NCBI GenBank assembly: GCA_023484185.1
Contig: JAMDBC010000036.1
Span: 1 to 5,894 of the forward strand
Length of the DNA stretch: 5,894 nt
Reading direction: 5' to 3'
Origin: Chloroflexota bacterium
GTDB taxonomy: Bacteria; Chloroflexota; Anaerolineae; Anaerolineales; Villigracilaceae
Part shown: piece after piece, positions 547 through 5,894 of the stretch
Position numbering within the stretch: position 1 is the stretch's first letter
Layout of the letters: each line of letters starts with the position of its first letter
Program-made: the position numbers and the translations under genes
Notes under the pieces: model-generated
Database searches by the model: none
What the model was told of the DNA's origin: nothing
What the model saw: the letters and a program-made list of their open reading frames with translations, nothing else

Positions 547-1830
547 TCACAAAGTCTTCAGCGCTAATTCGGTTGCGACAATAGTGGCGTCGATCACCTT
601 ATCTGTGTGCGCAGTTGAAATAAATCCGGCTTCAAATTGCGAGGGTGCAAGATAGACGCCATTCTCCAACATCTTCCCGAAAAATTTTCCAAAGCGTATT
701 TTATCCGCCACTTTGACCGTGCTCCAATCCACAGGCTTTGTTTCGCTAAAGAAAGTTGTGAACATCGTGCCGACCCGCGTTGGTTGGATGGGAACTCCCG
801 CTTTATTTGCCGCAGATGAAATTCCCGCTTCAAGCCGACCCGCAGCCTGCTCCAGCTTCTCCCAGCATTTCTCTTCCTTTAGCAGACTCAGCGCCGCGAC
901 GCCCGCGCTCATCGCCAATGGATTTCCTGAAAGCGTTCCAGCTTGATACATTGGGCCAACAGGCGCGACCATTCGCATGATCTCGCGCTTCCCGCCATAC
1001 GCGCCAACGGGCAATCCGCCGCCGATGACTTTGCCCAATGTCGTTAGATCAGGTTTGATGTTGTAGAGAGTTTGCGCGCCACCGCGATGGACACGAAAGC
1101 CTGTCATCACTTCATCGAAGATCAGCACGGCCCCCTCGCGGGAAGTGATCGCACGCAAACCCTCCAGGAATCCGGGTTGAGGCGGAATCACACCCATGTT
1201 GCCTGCAACGGGTTCGACGATGATCGCGGCAATCTGTTCGGGATATTTTTTGAATAATGTTTCCACAGAATCAAGATTATTGAAATCTGCCACTAAAGTA
1301 TCCTTGACTGTGTTCGCGGGCACGCCAGGCGAATCCGGCAGGCCAAGTGTTGCAACACCGGAACCTGCCTGTACCAACAGCATATCTGCGTGACCGTGAT
1401 AACAGCCCTCGAACTTGATAATCTTGTCGCGTTTGGTGTACGCGCGCGCCAACCGCAACGCGGACATGGTCGCTTCGGTGCCTGAGTTGACAAAGCGAAT
1501 CATCTCGATGTTGGGCATGAAGTCTATTATGCTTTTGGCAAGTTCAATCTCCAGAGGGCTGGGAGCGCCGTAGGATGTTCCTTTGCATGCAGCTTGTTGA
1601 ATGGCTTCAACGACTTTTGGATGAGCATGTCCCGTGATGAGCGGTCCCCACGAAAGGACATAATCAATATAGCGATTGCCATCTACATCATAAAGGCATG
1701 GACCTTCACCGCGCTCGATGAAGAGCGGTTGTCCGCCGACAGCGCGAAAGGCGCGCACAGGTGAGTTCACGCCGCCAGGGAATAATTTCTGTGCTTCTTG
1801 AAATAATGCAATTGATTTATCAATTTTCAT
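547..1830 (-). CDS. hemL: Glutamate-1-semialdehyde 2,1-aminomutase HemL
   Basis: A PLP enzyme of 427 residues (from the ATG at 1828-1830) that converts glutamate-1-semialdehyde to 5-aminolevulinate, the last step of the C5 route. The start [12 protein letters not shown], the PLP-phosphate region [32 protein letters not shown] with the PLP-ring Asp (about residue 239) and [18 protein letters not shown] with the Schiff-base Lys (about residue 267) are all intact. The usual family length is about 425-430. A TTG four codons upstream (1840-1842) would add MESI, but the GGAG six bases before the ATG is a proper ribosome binding site and overlaps that TTG, so the ATG is preferred. Presence of HemL implies the C5 pathway (with a glutamyl-tRNA reductase elsewhere) rather than ALA synthase. 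It is the last gene of the operon. Confidence 0.97.
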
Positions 1831-1836
1831 GATTGA

Positions 1837-1840
1837 CTCC
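1837..1840 (-). promoter_or_regulatory. Shine-Dalgarno of hemL (decides the start)
   Basis: On the minus strand GGAG stands six bases before the ATG at 1828-1830. It would sit inside the reading frame if the upstream TTG were used, so it argues for the ATG. Confidence 0.8.
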
Positions 1841-1848
1841 AAAAATGT

Positions 1849-3282
1849 TTACAGGTTTGCAGGTTGGAACGTTTCAACGTTTGAACTTGCAAACTTGAAA
1901 ATGCGTTCCACAGCCAGTTCTCCCGAACGAATACAATCGGGGATGCCGATGCCGCGATAGCCGTTGCCTGCCAGCGCGAGACCTAAATGATTCTCCAGTG
2001 CGGTGTCAATGCGTTTAAGTAATTCGGGATGACCGAGGTTATATTGCGGCATGGCTTTGTCCCACATAAAAACGCGCGAGAGGATCGGCTCGACGGTGAT
2101 ACCGAGTGTGAGATCTAATTCTTCCTTTGCCAAGGCAAGCAGATCATCTTCATTCCACGGAATATCCTGCCCAGCTCTGCCAACGAACACGCGAATAAGA
2201 GCATAACCATCTGGTGCGCGATGTGGAAATTTTGTAGATGTCCATGTGCAGGCGAGGGCTTTGCGTCCTTCGCGGCGCGGGATGACGTAGCCGTATCCGT
2301 CGAGCGGACGCGGCAGGTCACTCTGTTGGTAGGCTAGGGAGACGGTAGCGGTTGATGCGTAGGGGATGCTTTGTAAATCGGAAGCAAGCGTCGGGTCGAG
2401 TGAAGCGAGCAGAGTCCCGCTGACGTAGGCAGGAGTGGCGAGGATGATTGAGTCCGATTGCAGAGTATCACCAGTGTCAAGTGTCAAACGCCACGTGTCA
2501 GCGTGTTGTGTAATGCGTGTTGCGTGAGTCTTCAAGCGGAGAATTACGCCGTTGGTTTCAAGATAGACAACGAGAGCCTCGACAATTTCAGCGAGACCGG
2601 TGGTGGGCGTGAGAAATGCGGAGCGTGAACCTTGAACGGATTTGCCGTTTGATTGCTTTCGCATTTGAAGCGCGCCGCGCGAGAGACTGCCATATTTGAT
2701 TTCAAGATCGCGCAGGTATGGAAAAGTGGAGGCAAGCGATAGTTGATCGCCATCGCCCGCATAGATACCAGACATGAGCGGCTCGATGAGATTCTCATAC
2801 GCCTCACGCCCAAGCCGACGGCTGACAAACGCGCCGAGAGATTCATCGCCGTTGACAGCTTTTGCGGGCTGGACGAAATCAAATCCCATGCGCGCTTTGC
2901 CAAACCATGAAACCAATTGCGTTTTGAGAATTGCTTGAACGTTGGCGGGAATCATCATGGCGAGACCATCGGGCAAAGGCTCAAGTTTGTTTCGATGGAG
3001 AACATAAGTGTTTTTTTGATTTGGATTGGTGCCGTGCAAGCGCTCGCCGAGTCCGAGTTCTTTGCAAAGCGCGGTGGCGTAAGGTTTCGTGGCGAGAAAA
3101 GTATCCGGACCGCCTTCGATGATGAATTGACCATCGTCAAAAGTTGCGCGCTCAGTGATGATCTTGCCACCCCAGCGCGAATCAGATTCCAGGAGATTGA
3201 TTTCGGAGTATTGTTTACTGCGTGATGCGTAATAGGCGGCTGATAATCCAGCGATGCCGCCACCAATAACGATGAGTCTCAT
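1849..3282 (-). CDS. hemY: HemY-type FAD-dependent proto/coproporphyrinogen oxidase
   Basis: A 477-residue flavoprotein (also called HemG or CgoX in different bacteria) that oxidises protoporphyrinogen IX or coproporphyrinogen III by six electrons using oxygen, at the membrane surface. The N-terminal dinucleotide fold IGGGIAGLSAAYYA is at residues 6-19, with WGGKI at 37-41 and the family motif EGGPDTFL at 56-63. The central motif EPLMSGIYAGD is at 167-177, and the C-terminal FAD motif GNGYRGIGIPDCIRSGE at 439-455. Length and motif order are normal. Which substrate is used cannot be told from this window, because neither a coproporphyrinogen decarboxylase nor a chelatase/HemQ is present. The ATG overlaps the upstream stop by 4 bases and has no clear Shine-Dalgarno. 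Three heptamer-repeat tracts lie within it (residues about 17-26, 252-270 and 462-477); only the last is outside the family core. Confidence 0.95.
   Translation of the reverse strand: MRLIVIGGGIAGLSAAYYASRSKQYSEINLLESDSRWGGKIITERATFDDGQFIIEGGPDTFLATKPYATALCKELGLGERLHGTNPNQKNTYVLHRNKLEPLPDGLAMMIPANVQAILKTQLVSWFGKARMGFDFVQPAKAVNGDESLGAFVSRRLGREAYENLIEPLMSGIYAGDGDQLSLASTFPYLRDLEIKYGSLSRGALQMRKQSNGKSVQGSRSAFLTPTTGLAEIVEALVVYLETNGVILRLKTHATRITQHADTWRLTLDTGDTLQSDSIILATPAYVSGTLLASLDPTLASDLQSIPYASTATVSLAYQQSDLPRPLDGYGYVIPRREGRKALACTWTSTKFPHRAPDGYALIRVFVGRAGQDIPWNEDDLLALAKEELDLTLGITVEPILSRVFMWDKAMPQYNLGHPELLKRIDTALENHLGLALAGNGYRGIGIPDCIRSGELAVERIFKFASSNVETFQPANL
1851..1897. repeat. Degenerate heptamer tract at the hemY 3' end
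   Basis: A run of related 7-mers (ACAGGTT, TGCAGGT, then variants around AACGTTT and ACTTGAA) covers the last 16 codons and the stop of the oxidase gene. The encoded tail (FKFASSNVETFQPANL) lies beyond the conserved family end. Confidence 0.6.
2473..2528. repeat. Heptamer tract, eight units, inside hemY
   Basis: AGTGTCA twice, AACGCCA, CGTGTCA, then GCGTGTT, GTGTAAT, GCGTGTT and GCGTGAG, in unbroken 7-base phase over 56 bases. It encodes oxidase residues about 252-270 (around HATRITQHADTWRL), in the FAD-domain strands before the LATPA motif, apparently without changing the local length expected for the family. Confidence 0.7.
3207..3234. repeat. Probable degenerate heptamer tract in the 5' part of hemY
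   Basis: Units AGTATTG, TTTACTG, CGTGATG and CGTAATA share a loose consensus in 7-base phase. It encodes residues about 17-26, just after the dinucleotide-binding glycines. Degeneracy makes this the weakest of the set. Confidence 0.45.
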
Positions 3283-3611
3283 AAGTGAGGTGCTTTCAAT
3301 TTTTTGATGATTGATTCAAACGGCGGTTTGATCTTGTTTGCATTGAATGGATACCAACCCAATTCCGTGCGGACAGCTTGTTCCTTGAGTTCAGTGCTTC
3401 CCCAAACGAAGGTCGCGCCAAGAACGCCGATGACAACAGAGAGCCAATTGGTCTGGATAAACAAAGAAGAGATGATTAATACAAGGCCGATGCCCATCAT
3501 GTAGGGCCACCATAAAAAGCCAAAGATGCGTTCGCCGTGAATGACGAGCGGAAAGCCGAGTCCGACAATCAGGAGAGTGGCGATGCCGGTTGTGAGACCG
3601 AAGAAGTTCAT
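3279..3611 (-). CDS. Small membrane protein, DUF4491 family-like
   Basis: A 110-residue integral membrane protein of unknown function. Three hydrophobic segments are visible at about residues 5-24, 29-52 and 56-72, followed by EL-x2-Q, GWYPFN and a basic tail. The start MNFFGL, PLVIHGE, WW, LFI, IGVLG and GWYP-x-N pattern resembles DUF4491 proteins as I remember them; the length (about 100) also fits. The ATG at 3609-3611 has no Shine-Dalgarno, because the whole upstream gap is heptamer repeat; translation may depend on reinitiation from the preceding gene, whose stop is 12 bases away. Its own stop overlaps the oxidase start (ATGA), so the two are likely translationally coupled. Position inside a heme operon suggests an accessory membrane role, but no function can be assigned. 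Confidence 0.87.
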   Translation of the reverse strand: MNFFGLTTGIATLLIVGLGFPLVIHGERIFGFLWWPYMMGIGLVLIISSLFIQTNWLSVVIGVLGATFVWGSTELKEQAVRTELGWYPFNANKIKPPFESIIKKLKAPHL

Positions 3612-3612
3612 A

Positions 3613-3640
3613 GTGTTCAGTTATCAGTGATTAGTGATTA
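3613..3640. repeat. Heptamer tract, four units, spanning the gap between the membrane-protein genes
   Basis: Units GTGTTCA, GTTATCA and GTGATTA twice, in perfect phase. The tract fills the intergenic gap and contains the stop codon (3624-3626) and last codons of the upstream gene. Confidence 0.85.
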
Positions 3641-4037
3641 ATTGAATGGCTTCATCGGACGAAACAGAACGTCCGATGGGATCGCGTTTGAGCAGGTCAA
3701 GCGTAGTAGCGGATTTGCGGTCAGCCAAAATTTTGGCATGGCGCGGATTGTTTGGATTGGCGGGCGCGTGTCCCTTGATGATGCGTTTTTGCTGGCGGGT
3801 GAGTTCGAATGCGTCGAAGAGCAGGGTGATGCCTAAAATACCAAGAGCAGTTGTAAGTTGCAGGTTGAAGGTTGAAAGAGAGAACCACTCGCAAGTGATG
3901 CCAAGTATGGCCAAGATCACTGTCGGAAGCCAGATGATCGGCAAGATGAATTCAATCTTGCGGACAGTGACATGTCCAATCCATATACTGAGGAAGGCGG
4001 TGATGGCGGCAGTGAGTCCAAGTGTGTTGATTTGCAT
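3624..4037 (-). CDS. Small membrane protein, DUF4491-like, longer paralogue
   Basis: A 137-residue protein of unknown function with three likely membrane segments at about residues 6-22, 31-49 and 61-77, then a charged cytoplasmic-looking tail (FELTRQQKRIIKGHAPANP onward). It aligns with the next gene's product: GLT near the start, a Glu before the second segment, an aromatic-Leu/Trp-Pro in it, G-x-LG-x-T in the third, then EL-x2-Q, a basic stretch, a Gly and P-x-N. The pair therefore looks like a tandem duplication. It differs by a roughly 40-residue C-terminal extension and by three extra residues between segments two and three, where the DNA is heptamer repeat (residues about 52-64). The last residues (LITNH) and the stop codon also lie in repeat DNA. 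A good Shine-Dalgarno (GAGG, 8 bases upstream) overlaps the hemE stop. No enzymatic motif is seen. Confidence 0.85.
   Translation of the reverse strand: MQINTLGLTAAITAFLSIWIGHVTVRKIEFILPIIWLPTVILAILGITCEWFSLSTFNLQLTTALGILGITLLFDAFELTRQQKRIIKGHAPANPNNPRHAKILADRKSATTLDLLKRDPIGRSVSSDEAIQLITNH
3848..3875. repeat. Heptamer tract, four units, inside the longer membrane-protein gene
   Basis: Plus-strand units CAGTTGT, AAGTTGC and AGGTTGA twice, in exact 7-base phase. It encodes the linker between membrane segments two and three, where this protein has three more residues than its paralogue. Confidence 0.75.
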
Positions 4038-4045
4038 GTTTATGT

Positions 4046-4049
4046 CCTC
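4046..4049 (-). promoter_or_regulatory. Shine-Dalgarno of the first membrane-protein gene
   Basis: GAGG on the minus strand, eight bases before the ATG at 4035-4037. It overlaps the hemE stop codon (4048-4050) and belongs to the edge of the palindromic repeat, so a repeat element seems to provide the ribosome binding site. Confidence 0.7.
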
Positions 4050-4077
4050 ACCCTACCCTTTCCCGCGGGGAGAGGGA
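4046..4077. repeat. Palindromic REP-like repeat at hemE 3' end
   Basis: The arms CCCTTTCCC (4056-4064) and GGGAGAGGG (4068-4076) form a 9-bp stem with one G-T pair and a 3-base loop, flanked by CCTCACCCTA. This CCTCACCC-x-CCCT-x-TCCC-hairpin layout matches a repeat type common in many bacterial genomes, whose translation gives the recognisable LSPRERVG. Here it encodes exactly that as the HemE C-terminus. There is no T-tract on the minus-strand side, so it is not a standard terminator. Confidence 0.75.
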
Positions 4078-5139
4078 ATACTCATGCACCATATCCACCA
4101 CAGCCTTCACATTATCAACAGGCGTGTTTTGCAAAATGCCATGTCCGAGATTGAAGATGTGACCAGGTCGTCCATTCGCACGGCGAAGAATATCGTGGAC
4201 GCGCTTTTTGATCTCAGGAAGCGGCGCAAAGAGCAGGGCGGGATCAAGATTCCCTTGAACGGCGACATCATCACCAAGTAGTTTCCAGCCATCGTCCAGC
4301 GGGATGCGCCAGTCGAGTCCGATCACGTCGCCGCCCGCGCGTTTCATCAAAGGCAGGAGAGTCGTCGTATTTGTGCCAAAGTGAATGACGGTCACGTTTT
4401 CTTTTTTTGCGGCTTGCAAAACTTTTTGCGAATATGGCAGGACAAATGTTTTGTAATCCTGCGGGCTTAGCGCGCCGACCCACGAGTCAAAGATCTGCAC
4501 GATTTGCGCGCCCGCACGGATCTGTGCCACGAGATAATCTGTCAGCACCGCGGAAAGTTTTTCCATCAGCGCGTGCCACGTTTGCGGATCGGAGTACATC
4601 ATTGTTTTTGTTTTTAAAAACTCGCGCGAGGAACCGCCTTCGATAATATATGAAGCGACAGTGAACGGTGCGCCGCAAAAGCCGATGAGCGGGGTTTCTT
4701 TGAGTTCGCCGCGCAGAATTCTGATCGCATCCAGCACGTATTTCAAATCTGTTTCCGGATTCACAGGATGCAGATTTTTTACATCATCCATCGTGCGGAC
4801 AGGATTCTGTAGAACAGGTCCTTCGCCTTTTGCAAACTCCAAGCCAACGCCGAGCGGAATGGCGGGCAGGAGAATGTCAGCGAAGAGGATTGCTGCATCC
4901 ACGCCGAGGGCACGGACAGGTTGCAGTGTCACTTCGGCAGCAATCTCGGGATGATGACAAATTTCGATCAGTGAATACTTCTCACGGATGGTGCGATACT
5001 CTGGCATGTACCGTCCAGCCTGGCGCATGAACCAGACAGGGGTGGAGTCGTTTGGTAAACGGCGGCAGGCGCGGAGGAAGGATGATTCGAGATTCGATAT
5101 TCGAGAGTCGGGAGTCGGGAGTTGAGTCACTGTATTCAT
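4048..5139 (-). CDS. hemE: Uroporphyrinogen III decarboxylase HemE
   Basis: A 363-residue cytosolic enzyme that removes the four acetate carboxylates of uroporphyrinogen III to give coproporphyrinogen III. The family signature RQAGRYMPEYR is at residues 39-49, with substrate-binding Arg39 and Arg43. Asp88 in FADIL corresponds to the catalytic Asp86 of the human enzyme; Tyr164, Ser219 in FDSW, and His333 in NLGHG match the other active-site positions. All key residues are present, so it should be active. The family core starts near Phe21 (FLRACRR) and ends near Tyr354. Residues about 5-19 are encoded by six tandem heptamers, and the last nine (SLSPRERVG) by a palindromic repeat, so both ends are repeat-derived extensions. 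The ATG at 5137-5139 has a weak GGA six bases upstream (5146-5148); no better start exists before the core, since the GTG at residue 4 also lies ahead of the repeats. Confidence 0.97.
   Translation of the reverse strand: MNTVTQLPTPDSRISNLESSFLRACRRLPNDSTPVWFMRQAGRYMPEYRTIREKYSLIEICHHPEIAAEVTLQPVRALGVDAAILFADILLPAIPLGVGLEFAKGEGPVLQNPVRTMDDVKNLHPVNPETDLKYVLDAIRILRGELKETPLIGFCGAPFTVASYIIEGGSSREFLKTKTMMYSDPQTWHALMEKLSAVLTDYLVAQIRAGAQIVQIFDSWVGALSPQDYKTFVLPYSQKVLQAAKKENVTVIHFGTNTTTLLPLMKRAGGDVIGLDWRIPLDDGWKLLGDDVAVQGNLDPALLFAPLPEIKKRVHDILRRANGRPGHIFNLGHGILQNTPVDNVKAVVDMVHEYSLSPRERVG
5084..5125. repeat. Tandem heptamer tract, six units, in the hemE 5' end
   Basis: Six consecutive 7-mers on the plus strand: GATTCGA twice, then TATTCGA, GAGTCGG twice, and GAGTTGA. 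The 42 bases equal 14 codons, so the tract keeps frame and encodes HemE residues about 5-19, ahead of the conserved core. Confidence 0.85.
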
Positions 5140-5148
5140 GGTTTGTCC

Positions 5149-5169
5149 AATTTACGATTCCCGATTCCC
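5149..5169. repeat. Short heptamer tract at the radical SAM 3' end
   Basis: GATTCCC occurs twice in tandem (5156-5162, 5163-5169) preceded by the degenerate unit AATTTAC. The tract contains the stop codon (5152-5154) and the last codons of the radical SAM gene. Confidence 0.65.
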
Positions 5170-5894
5170 GCTGACCAATACGCACGCAGGATCGCTTTCC
5201 AGATAATCACCCGTGATTCCATACGCGCGGCCGCGTTGACCGCCGCACACGTCGCGGTATTCGCAGGTCCCGCACACGCCTTTGTATTTATTGGGGTTGC
5301 GCAGGTCTTTGAAGATTTGCGAGTTGCGATAGACATCCACGATATCGTGCTCGCGCACCATGCCCGCGGTGATGGGGAGAAATCCGCTTGGTTGAATTTC
5401 GCCGATATGCGAGATGAACAAAAAGCCGTTGCCATCGTTGACGCCTTTGGTGGGACGATGAAGTCCGTCTGCGTATTGGAAGCCCGCGCTTTGGAACGTG
5501 ACGGGTTTGCCAGTATTTTCGGCGCGCTTGCGTTCAATTGCCACACGGCGATACATCGGCGCGGCAGTGGCTTTGATGTCAAAGGGCGCGGTCTGGGCAA
5601 GATCGTACAGCCAGTTGAAAACCTTCTCGTGCTGCTGGGCAGAGACCATCTGCTCGGCCATGGCGCGTCCCGTGGGGACGAGGAAGAACACCGACCATTG
5701 CACCGCACCGACTTCCTGAATGAACGGAACCATCTCGTGCAGAATGTCCACGTTGTGTTTGGCAATCGTCGTATTGACCTGCACGCTCAAACCGACACCA
5801 TGCGCGCGATGGAGCGTATCCATTGTGCGCTGCCACGAACCTTTGATCTTGCGAAAGTCATCGTGGATTTCCGAGCGCGGCGCGTCGAGCGACA
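5152..5894 (-). CDS. Radical SAM/SPASM-domain protein, AhbD/NirJ-like (C-terminal part, cut by window edge)
   Basis: The frame stays open to the window end, giving 246 residues; the true start and the radical SAM CxxxCxxC motif lie outside. The visible part begins with SLDAPRSEIHDDFRKIKGSW, the conserved strand and helix after the SLDG-type motif of radical SAM barrels, followed by VQVNTTI and the barrel strand VQWSVFFLVPTGRA. The C-terminus is a SPASM-type auxiliary iron-sulfur domain with cysteines at about 5272-5274, 5263-5265, 5245-5247 and 5182-5184 (pattern CGTCEYRDVCGG, then RAYGITGDYLESDPAC). The CGG-RAY-TGDYL-DP-C signature is shared by AhbD (Fe-coproporphyrin decarboxylation to heme), NirJ (heme d1) and a related uncharacterised family resembling TIGR04053. 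Adjacency to hemE supports a tetrapyrrole role, but the reaction is not determined by sequence. The last residues (about SGNRES) come from a 7-bp repeat and look like a non-native tail. Confidence 0.93.
   Translation of the reverse strand, partial: SLDAPRSEIHDDFRKIKGSWQRTMDTLHRAHGVGLSVQVNTTIAKHNVDILHEMVPFIQEVGAVQWSVFFLVPTGRAMAEQMVSAQQHEKVFNWLYDLAQTAPFDIKATAAPMYRRVAIERKRAENTGKPVTFQSAGFQYADGLHRPTKGVNDGNGFLFISHIGEIQPSGFLPITAGMVREHDIVDVYRNSQIFKDLRNPNKYKGVCGTCEYRDVCGGQRGRAYGITGDYLESDPACVLVSGNRES

Follow-up and report, generated by a model that had tools for sequence, protein, structure and literature searches.

An excess of 7-base tandem repeat units in bacterial genomes has been published and is mainly attributed to replication slippage (Mrazek 2007, as reported in PMC4692102 and PMC4679880). 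Here we analyze a 5,894-nucleotide stretch of DNA from a Chloroflexota bacterium (contig JAMDBC010000036.1; hereafter the window), which carries a heme operon with arrays of 7- and 8-base words between and inside its genes. Like the heptanucleotide long simple sequence repeats of that earlier work, the arrays favor unit 7, which is more frequent than other lengths and than in shuffled sequence, and they are dispersed and mostly short. Unlike those repeats, they are mostly degenerate, have fixed and free positions within the word, occur alongside an 8-base class and switch words at coding sites. In Beggiatoaceae, direct repeats of TAACTGA lie mostly directly upstream of start codons and also overlap stop codons and protein ends; one exact word is used there and related heptamers are rare (PMC4679880). 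TAACTGA is a rotation of ACTGATA and belongs to the ACTG family described below, and the degenerate window array at 3611-3640 contains it once. That array does abut a start codon, as in Beggiatoaceae, whereas in the genomes studied here the last base of ACTGATN is free, many words are used and there is no excess before ATG.

The Xanthomonas GGGAATC and Nostoc GGGGA(C/T)T repeats are heterogeneous (GGGANTN)n heptamers that likewise combine a fixed core with free positions and are mostly intergenic (PMC4692102), and the window word at 5155-5170 is GGGAATC, as in Xanthomonas. These repeats have been attributed to G-quadruplexes (PMC4692102), whereas most words here are not G-rich. In Geobacter metallireducens, predicted sites of a global regulator are degenerate tandem 7- or 8-base repeats, often paired on opposite strands, with four-unit heptamer elements within and between genes (PMC2700814). 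Opposite-strand pairing is found here as well, but the Geobacter words differ (GTTGCTYN, TCTCCGTS[Y], MTYCTGA, GGACCGG), and the available part of that paper holds no conservation test of core against free positions. Heptad reading has a precedent in the parS site of plasmid pSM19035, where the ribbon-helix-helix (RHH) protein Omega/ParB reads unspaced 7-bp heptads with one dimer per word and becomes fully active only where four or more words stand in a row (PMC9499535). The words analyzed here are also unspaced and in tandem, and by analogy this partition protein may serve as a working model for reading; however, parS is the centromere of a single plasmid, each site holding 7-10 words, whereas here we find hundreds of arrays and many words. 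Borg tandem repeats are fast-evolving in spacers and genes, as ours are, but their units are perfect and the in-gene units are all divisible by three (PMC9879509). A preliminary description of the window had also proposed a resemblance in style to the heptamer repeats of cyanobacteria. A 2025 survey of short tandem repeats found 6-9 bp units enriched in a subset of prokaryotic phyla, in a main text that does not contain "Chloroflex" (PMC12699852), and among the papers listed by a search of the open literature none describes such heptamer or tandem repeats for Chloroflexi, Chloroflexota or Anaerolineae. What is new here is that the words of the best-defined families combine a fixed core with free positions, and that the core evolves slower than its flanks and the free letters faster.

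A genome-contig scan identified the relatives of the window as Anaerolineales/Chloroflexi metagenome records (43 loci, up to 83% protein identity). The window and these loci (660,884 bp) contain, at the score threshold applied, 93 period-7 and 21 period-8 arrays, against 0 or 1 array at each of periods 4, 5, 6, 9, 10, 11 and 13 and four at period 12; periods 14, 15, 16, 21 and 24 are elevated, as multiples and sums of 7 and 8 predict. Markov shuffles of the same sequences yielded one period-7 array. In 400 kb from each of three genomes of relatives (G021, G010 and G052), period 7 accounts for 26, 39 and 7 arrays and period 8 for 23, 14 and 4, compared to 9, 2 and 1 at period 10, 1, 4 and 0 at period 6, and 2, 2 and 3 at period 9. 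The nine period-10 arrays of G021 (C3:1-400000) have words like AAAAACGCAG and AAATCAGCGT. No array at period 7 or 8 was found in 50 kb of E. coli K-12. The heme operon is an array hotspot. In the hem locus of G021, 12 arrays fall within 21 kb, whereas 36 other 20-kb pieces average 2.6 and reach at most 9; in that of G010, 12 fall within 18 kb, whereas 24 other pieces average 2.8 and again reach at most 9. Across 28 relatives, density is 0.16-0.45 arrays per kb in a region that begins 8 kb before the start of the oxidase gene of the operon and ends 2 kb past it, and 0-0.09 in the bins beyond. The preliminary description had proposed an unusual density of tandem heptamers in this operon, and this proposal holds up both against shuffled sequence and against other pieces of the two genomes.

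The tracts are arrays of short words drawn from a limited vocabulary that is common to related genomes. Altogether, 165 period-7 tracts gave 66 consensus classes, the largest being AATTACC (28 tracts) and ACTGATC (26). A three-unit ACTGATN pattern occurs in 25 of 34 relatives with 312 matches (one for the control read backward), GTANACAN is present in 26 of 36 relatives, and exact AATTACC x3 in 17 of 36. The array process is thus widespread among the relatives tested and not specific to the genome of the window, as the wording of the preliminary description implied; its observation that unit words differ from tract to tract was correct. Word numbers vary independently from genome to genome, with ACTGATN/GTANACAN/AATTACC counts of 9/163/0 in G003, 65/9/0 in G002, 57/64/55 in G010 and 62/304/12 in G021; G052 has a single match of the three-unit GTANACAN pattern. 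The best-defined families consist of a fixed core and free positions, namely ACTG-NTN (7 bases) and GTA-N-ACA-N (8 bases). Adjacent GTANACAN units mismatch at position 4 in 53% and at position 8 in 48% of comparisons, and at the other six positions in at most 5%; adjacent ACTG-type units mismatch at position 7 in 51%, at position 5 in 37%, at position 6 in 13% and at positions 1-4 in at most 6%, and GACTATNA units mismatch at position 7 in 60%. The free letters of GTANACAN match between units near chance at most lags, with position 8 raised at lag 2 (0.56 vs 0.36). In host (cellular) ACTG arrays, last-base identity is 0.53, 0.57 and 0.85 at lags 2, 4 and 6 against a chance value of 0.35, and 0.34, 0.38 and 0.41 at odd lags 1, 3 and 5, as if blocks of two units had been duplicated.

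To compare core and free letters between orthologues, we used arrays that are ascertained in one sequence only and align gap-free through both flanks; unanchored array comparisons are prone to register shifts and were not used as proof. Anchored comparisons of G021 with G010 alone were too few (1 for GTANACAN, 5 for ACTG and 7 for AATTACC, both directions counted), and loci were therefore pooled. In 39 ACTG arrays, mismatches amount to 35/515 (6.8%) in the core, 80/206 (38.8%) at free positions and 193/1170 in the flanks; in six GTANACAN arrays, they amount to 7/126, 21/42 and 41/180, respectively. Since an array is recognized by the core of one partner, even a core under no constraint might have only about half as many mismatches as a free site. 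After doubling the core count to account for this ceiling, the ACTG contrast remains (P=3.7e-13), and free positions lie above the core in 34 of the 39 arrays and below it in three. A strict test with one array per site cluster gives P=0.017 for ACTG (10 sites) and P=3.2e-5 for GTANACAN (5 sites). The core is therefore more conserved than the sequence around it, and the free letters are less so. A replicate on 27 arrays from viral contigs points in the same direction (core 27/432, free 55/324, flanks 102/810), with free above core in 18 arrays, below in four and equal in five.

Arrays come and go as units and as whole tracts. Between G021 and G010 (88% identity), 83 unaligned junctions of syntenic pieces, a count that excludes arrays inside aligned blocks, comprise 64 without an array, four with an array in both genomes, 10 with an array in G010 only and five in G021 only; for two or more of these junctions the one-sided label goes too far, as a shorter or decayed array is present in the other genome. 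Most other one-sided junctions have an unrelated spacer in the other genome, and no clean empty site was seen among them. In two cases with a short array in the partner, the difference consists of whole units (49 and 63 nt), and several orthologous spacers carry different words in relatives. Since arrays are present in some relatives and absent from others, and change length by whole units, array turnover is active. To this extent the preliminary description is supported, although a repeat-generating process alone leaves the division into kept and free positions unexplained. Neighboring GTANACAN arrays form 14 forward-reverse pairs, no reverse-forward pair and one parallel pair, and in G021 and G010 a ribosome-binding site with a start codon lies within 50 nt on one side of 14 of 20 GTANACAN pairs, against 0.083 per strand for random positions. 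Host ACTG arrays form six reverse-forward, no forward-reverse and six parallel pairs. Pairing of the words with the 3' end of 16S rRNA, and words serving as stops in all frames, were judged by eye and dropped, since the free letters would then be fixed.

Within the window, a scan for local self-matches at every shift from 2 to 30 (score at least 9) returned four period-7 segments (5084-5122, 3849-3876, 3617-3640 and 5155-5170). Period 8 gave one (1847-1886), periods 14 and 27 gave one apiece, and every other period gave none. Tandem Repeats Finder agrees with these places and adds 2473-2487 and 2501-2526. We then compared each tract with 2000 Markov sequences of equal length, which yields P values that are uncorrected for the prior choice of tracts by eye. 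Of the seven heptamer tracts listed in the preliminary description, five are clear at period 7, one has a different period and one is weak. The array at 1847-1897, which encodes the C-terminal tail of the oxidase, is built from GTTTACAG/GTTTGCAG/GTTTGAAC-like units of 8 bases (tract 1851-1897: P=0.0005 at period 8, P=0.48 at period 7). The array at 2473-2528, within the oxidase gene at residues about 252-270, comprises 2.1 units of AGTGTCA followed by 3.7 units of GCGTGTT (P=0.0015), and the stretch at 3207-3234, close to the N-terminus of the oxidase (residues about 17-25), is unconvincing by itself (P=0.03). The minus-strand ACTG-family array at 3611-3640 (ACTAATC ACTGATA ACTGAAC ACTATG) lies at the junction of two DUF4491 genes, where it covers the stop codon of the upstream gene and continues into a start codon (tract 3613-3640: P=0.001). 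A TTCAACC array on the minus strand at 3849-3876 lies inside the second DUF4491 gene (tract 3848-3875: P=0.0005). The array at 5084-5122, in which GATTCGA shifts to TCGGGAG, lies at the N-terminal end of the hemE reading frame and has the top self-match score of 20 (tract 5084-5125: P=0.0005), and the array at 5155-5170 repeats GGGAATC on the minus strand over the 3' end of a radical-SAM gene and the spacer (tract 5149-5169: P=0.0005). Upon synonymous codon shuffling (300 shuffles per gene), which the preliminary description had named as a refuting check, the period signal persists in hemE (P=0.003), the second DUF4491 gene (DUF4491b; P=0.003) and the radical-SAM fragment (P=0.007), as well as in the oxidase gene at period 8 (P=0.003); it is marginal for period 7 in the oxidase gene (P=0.043), and there is none in hemL or in the first DUF4491 gene (DUF4491a).

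Arrays inside genes recur at particular sites. We found 31 arrays in 36 oxidase sequences, of which 19 lie at residues 250-269 and use at least five different words, so that many orthologues bear an array at the same loop as the window. Five lie at residues 21-22, three near 242 and one each near 34 and 375, and the two C-terminal ones belong to the window and to locus L001, which has the same period-8 array as window 1847-1897 at residue 472. The arrays at residues 21-22 (ACGCANC, AACCTTC and TACGCAA, in 5 of 36 orthologues) lend support to the weak site at 3207-3234. What the period-7 scan picked up at residue 375 is a palindromic repeat, CCCTCACCCC...GGGGTGAGGG, inside the oxidase gene of locus L022 (10790-10841), which recurs at the corresponding site of L021. 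An alignment of 32 DUF4491 proteins, which leaves out L002 despite its DUF4491 match, is gap-free over the array site, so that all have equal length there, and the words at the site, ACTGATN, CACTTTC, AACCGTC, CACTGTC or TTCAACC, lie in register. Words have therefore been replaced without a change of length in this gene, whereas in another gene word replacement altered the length. The expectation that coding tracts sit only at gene ends or are balanced by their unit number does not hold for the DUF4491 site. A count at third codon positions gives 0.47 for the background, 0 to 0.17 for core and 0.41 to 0.71 for free positions; its 12 rows were picked for the ACTG word, and the core conservation is partly built in. 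The longest-open-frame gene calls overcall coding and are no basis for stating what fraction of arrays is coding.

The same words occur in phage-type contigs. In the viral collection, at least 120 stretches contain four consecutive ACTGATN units, and three stretches on two contigs contain GTANACAN x4. Contig L178 encodes head-tail adaptor and neck families and a relative of proteins annotated as major capsid or head proteins, and holds 28 ACTG arrays in 9,130 bp. At ten of the 12 gene junctions examined in L178, a CAGT array is separated by a spacer from an ACTG array, and some of the spacers fold very stably (-60 to -120 kcal/mol). In 120 viral loci, a set with overlaps and with related contigs among them, neighboring array pairs are in the order CAGT-spacer-ACTG in 171 cases, in the opposite order in none and parallel in 87. 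Array density is 2.6-3.5 ACTG arrays per kb in the phage-type contigs L178, L162, L240, L142, L244, L251 and L172.

Our preferred explanation, to which we assign a probability of roughly 45%, is that slippage supplies the words and that constraint on a recognition core maintains them. Whole words would be gained and lost, as by replication slippage, and arrays would persist where extra or altered DNA is tolerable, such as operon junctions, protein loops and tails. Constraint would hold the core, most likely because a sequence-specific reader uses the array; this reader would probably be a DNA-binding protein, roughly one molecule of which would sit on each word. The word pattern, the core/free contrast and the turnover are observed; a reader behind the constraint, its nature as a DNA-acting protein and slippage as the source of words are inferred. 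If the arrays are read, hundreds of unannotated sites per genome, some of them in essential genes, become candidate binding platforms, and array-dense phage contigs would be a natural place to seek their function. The core-versus-free test offers a simple probe of whether repeat arrays are read, and at coding sites a change of words at the DNA level rewrites protein loops, in one gene at constant length.

Several observations weigh against this explanation. The pairs compared in the conservation test share ancestry, one of the six GTANACAN comparisons lies within G021, and the viral replicate fails the strict one-array-per-site test (P=0.13). Small families give a mixed picture: the core lies below the free positions in four AATCGNN arrays (3/55 vs 6/22, P=0.014), there is no significant difference in two GACTATNA arrays, and in three ACGCANC arrays the core (10/42) is no lower than the flanks (20/90), with free positions at 5/7. 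The split between fixed and free positions is blurrier in the AATTACC, AACCTTC, CTCTACT, GGAACGT and GAACGTTT families. Orthologous sites swap words, which is odd for gene-specific regulation, and host ACTG arrays are not enriched before ATG (17 of 61, or 0.28, within 16 nt vs 0.26 for random positions), leaving a start-codon role for them in hosts unsupported. A search for a reader of the pSM19035 type, confined to Pfam RHH_1 and liable to miss divergent RHH proteins, found matches in 11 of 27 genomes that do not track GTANACAN numbers: there are none in the array-rich genomes G021, G012, G008 and G013, and three in G003. On this mismatch with array numbers we reject RHH_1, the one reader family that the search covered; judging from these sequence matches, a reader, if there is one, would be a protein other than RHH_1 or a divergent one.

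The strongest rival that remains is replication slippage alone, with units of 7-8 nt favored, in which arrays are neutral by-products that survive where they do little harm. It accounts well for the whole-unit length differences, the frequent gain and loss at G021/G010 junctions, the sharp period preference and near-perfect arrays such as the about 20 GTACACAG units of one recent-looking array in G021, and the even-lag identity of free letters in ACTG arrays is what two-unit duplication predicts. An explanation of this kind by polymerase contact is in print, credited to Mrazek 2007 (via PMC4692102 and PMC4679880). However, slippage followed by random mutation should affect every word position equally, contrary to what we observe, and it does not readily explain why the same few words recur or how words changed at constant length in DUF4491. 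On the position-bound variation and the core/free contrast we set slippage aside as the only cause, while regarding it as a possible, if less probable, account. The opposite extreme, that the eye had selected period-7 patches of random or codon-biased sequence, draws on the weak stretch at 3207-3234 and the signal-free hemL and DUF4491a; it is refuted by the single array in shuffled sequence, the persistence of the signal under codon shuffling (P=0.003-0.007 in hemE, DUF4491b and the radical-SAM fragment), the near-empty other periods, the array-free E. coli sequence and the one backward match against 312 for ACTGATN in 34 genomes.

Two further mechanisms were considered. In a molecular drive or mobility process, biased copying would spread word families and restore their core without selection at each site, in the manner of DNA uptake sequences. 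The independent word numbers in relatives such as G003, G002 and G021 fit this idea, as does the occurrence of arrays in coding and non-coding DNA alike and in phage-type contigs. Array copies should then share their free letters, but those of GTANACAN are near chance even in adjacent units, and DNA uptake sequences are single sites with one word per genome; we consider drive unlikely. Alternatively, inverted array pairs could be retained as RNA stem-loops that end, process or protect transcripts. Inverted pairs do exist and some L178 spacers are very stable, but the arms pair worse than permutations of their free letters in GTANACAN pairs (15 pairs, mean z +0.70), in viral ACTG pairs (36 pairs from 7 related loci, mean z +0.76; 17 above +1 and two below -1) and in host ACTG pairs (8 pairs, mean z +0.78), which speaks against a hairpin as the selected feature. 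Many arrays, moreover, are single or lie inside coding DNA, and hairpins appear more improbable still. Returning to constraint on a recognition core, a wider and rather doubtful extension is that fixed-core/free-letter arrays form a general layer of genome punctuation across several bacterial phyla and their phages, with a reader for each word class, placed at junctions and tolerated in genes, whose families rise and fade; in some tailed phages, inverted ACTG arrays would bracket nearly every gene.

All genes of the window lie on the minus strand. The array-free hemL (547..1842; glutamate-1-semialdehyde aminomutase, TIGR00713 above cut-off) is followed along the window by the protoporphyrinogen oxidase gene with its three array sites (1849..3282; TIGR00562 above cut-off, PF01593), DUF4491a (3279..3611; PF14898), DUF4491b with its internal array (3624..4037; PF14898) and hemE (4048..5139; uroporphyrinogen decarboxylase, TIGR01464 above cut-off). 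The C-terminal part of a radical-SAM/SPASM gene (5152..5823) apparently extends beyond the window end; its top model is TIGR04053, matched over profile positions 140-364 with a score under the cut-off, which is no surprise for a fragment. The DUF4491 pair between hemE and the oxidase gene (3279-4037), of unknown function, has matches in 32 and 33 of the 43 loci. Positions 1-546, downstream of hemL, are without a convincing gene, the sole listed frame being one of 85 amino acids on the opposite strand. Dispersed repeats of other kinds were also seen: G021 contains an element of about 87 bp with dozens of matches at about 87-96% identity and a second element of about 60-115 bp with dozens more, and in the window the hemE C-terminus SPRERVG is encoded by a GC-rich, palindrome-like stretch (4045-4081) that by eye resembles a dispersed repeat.

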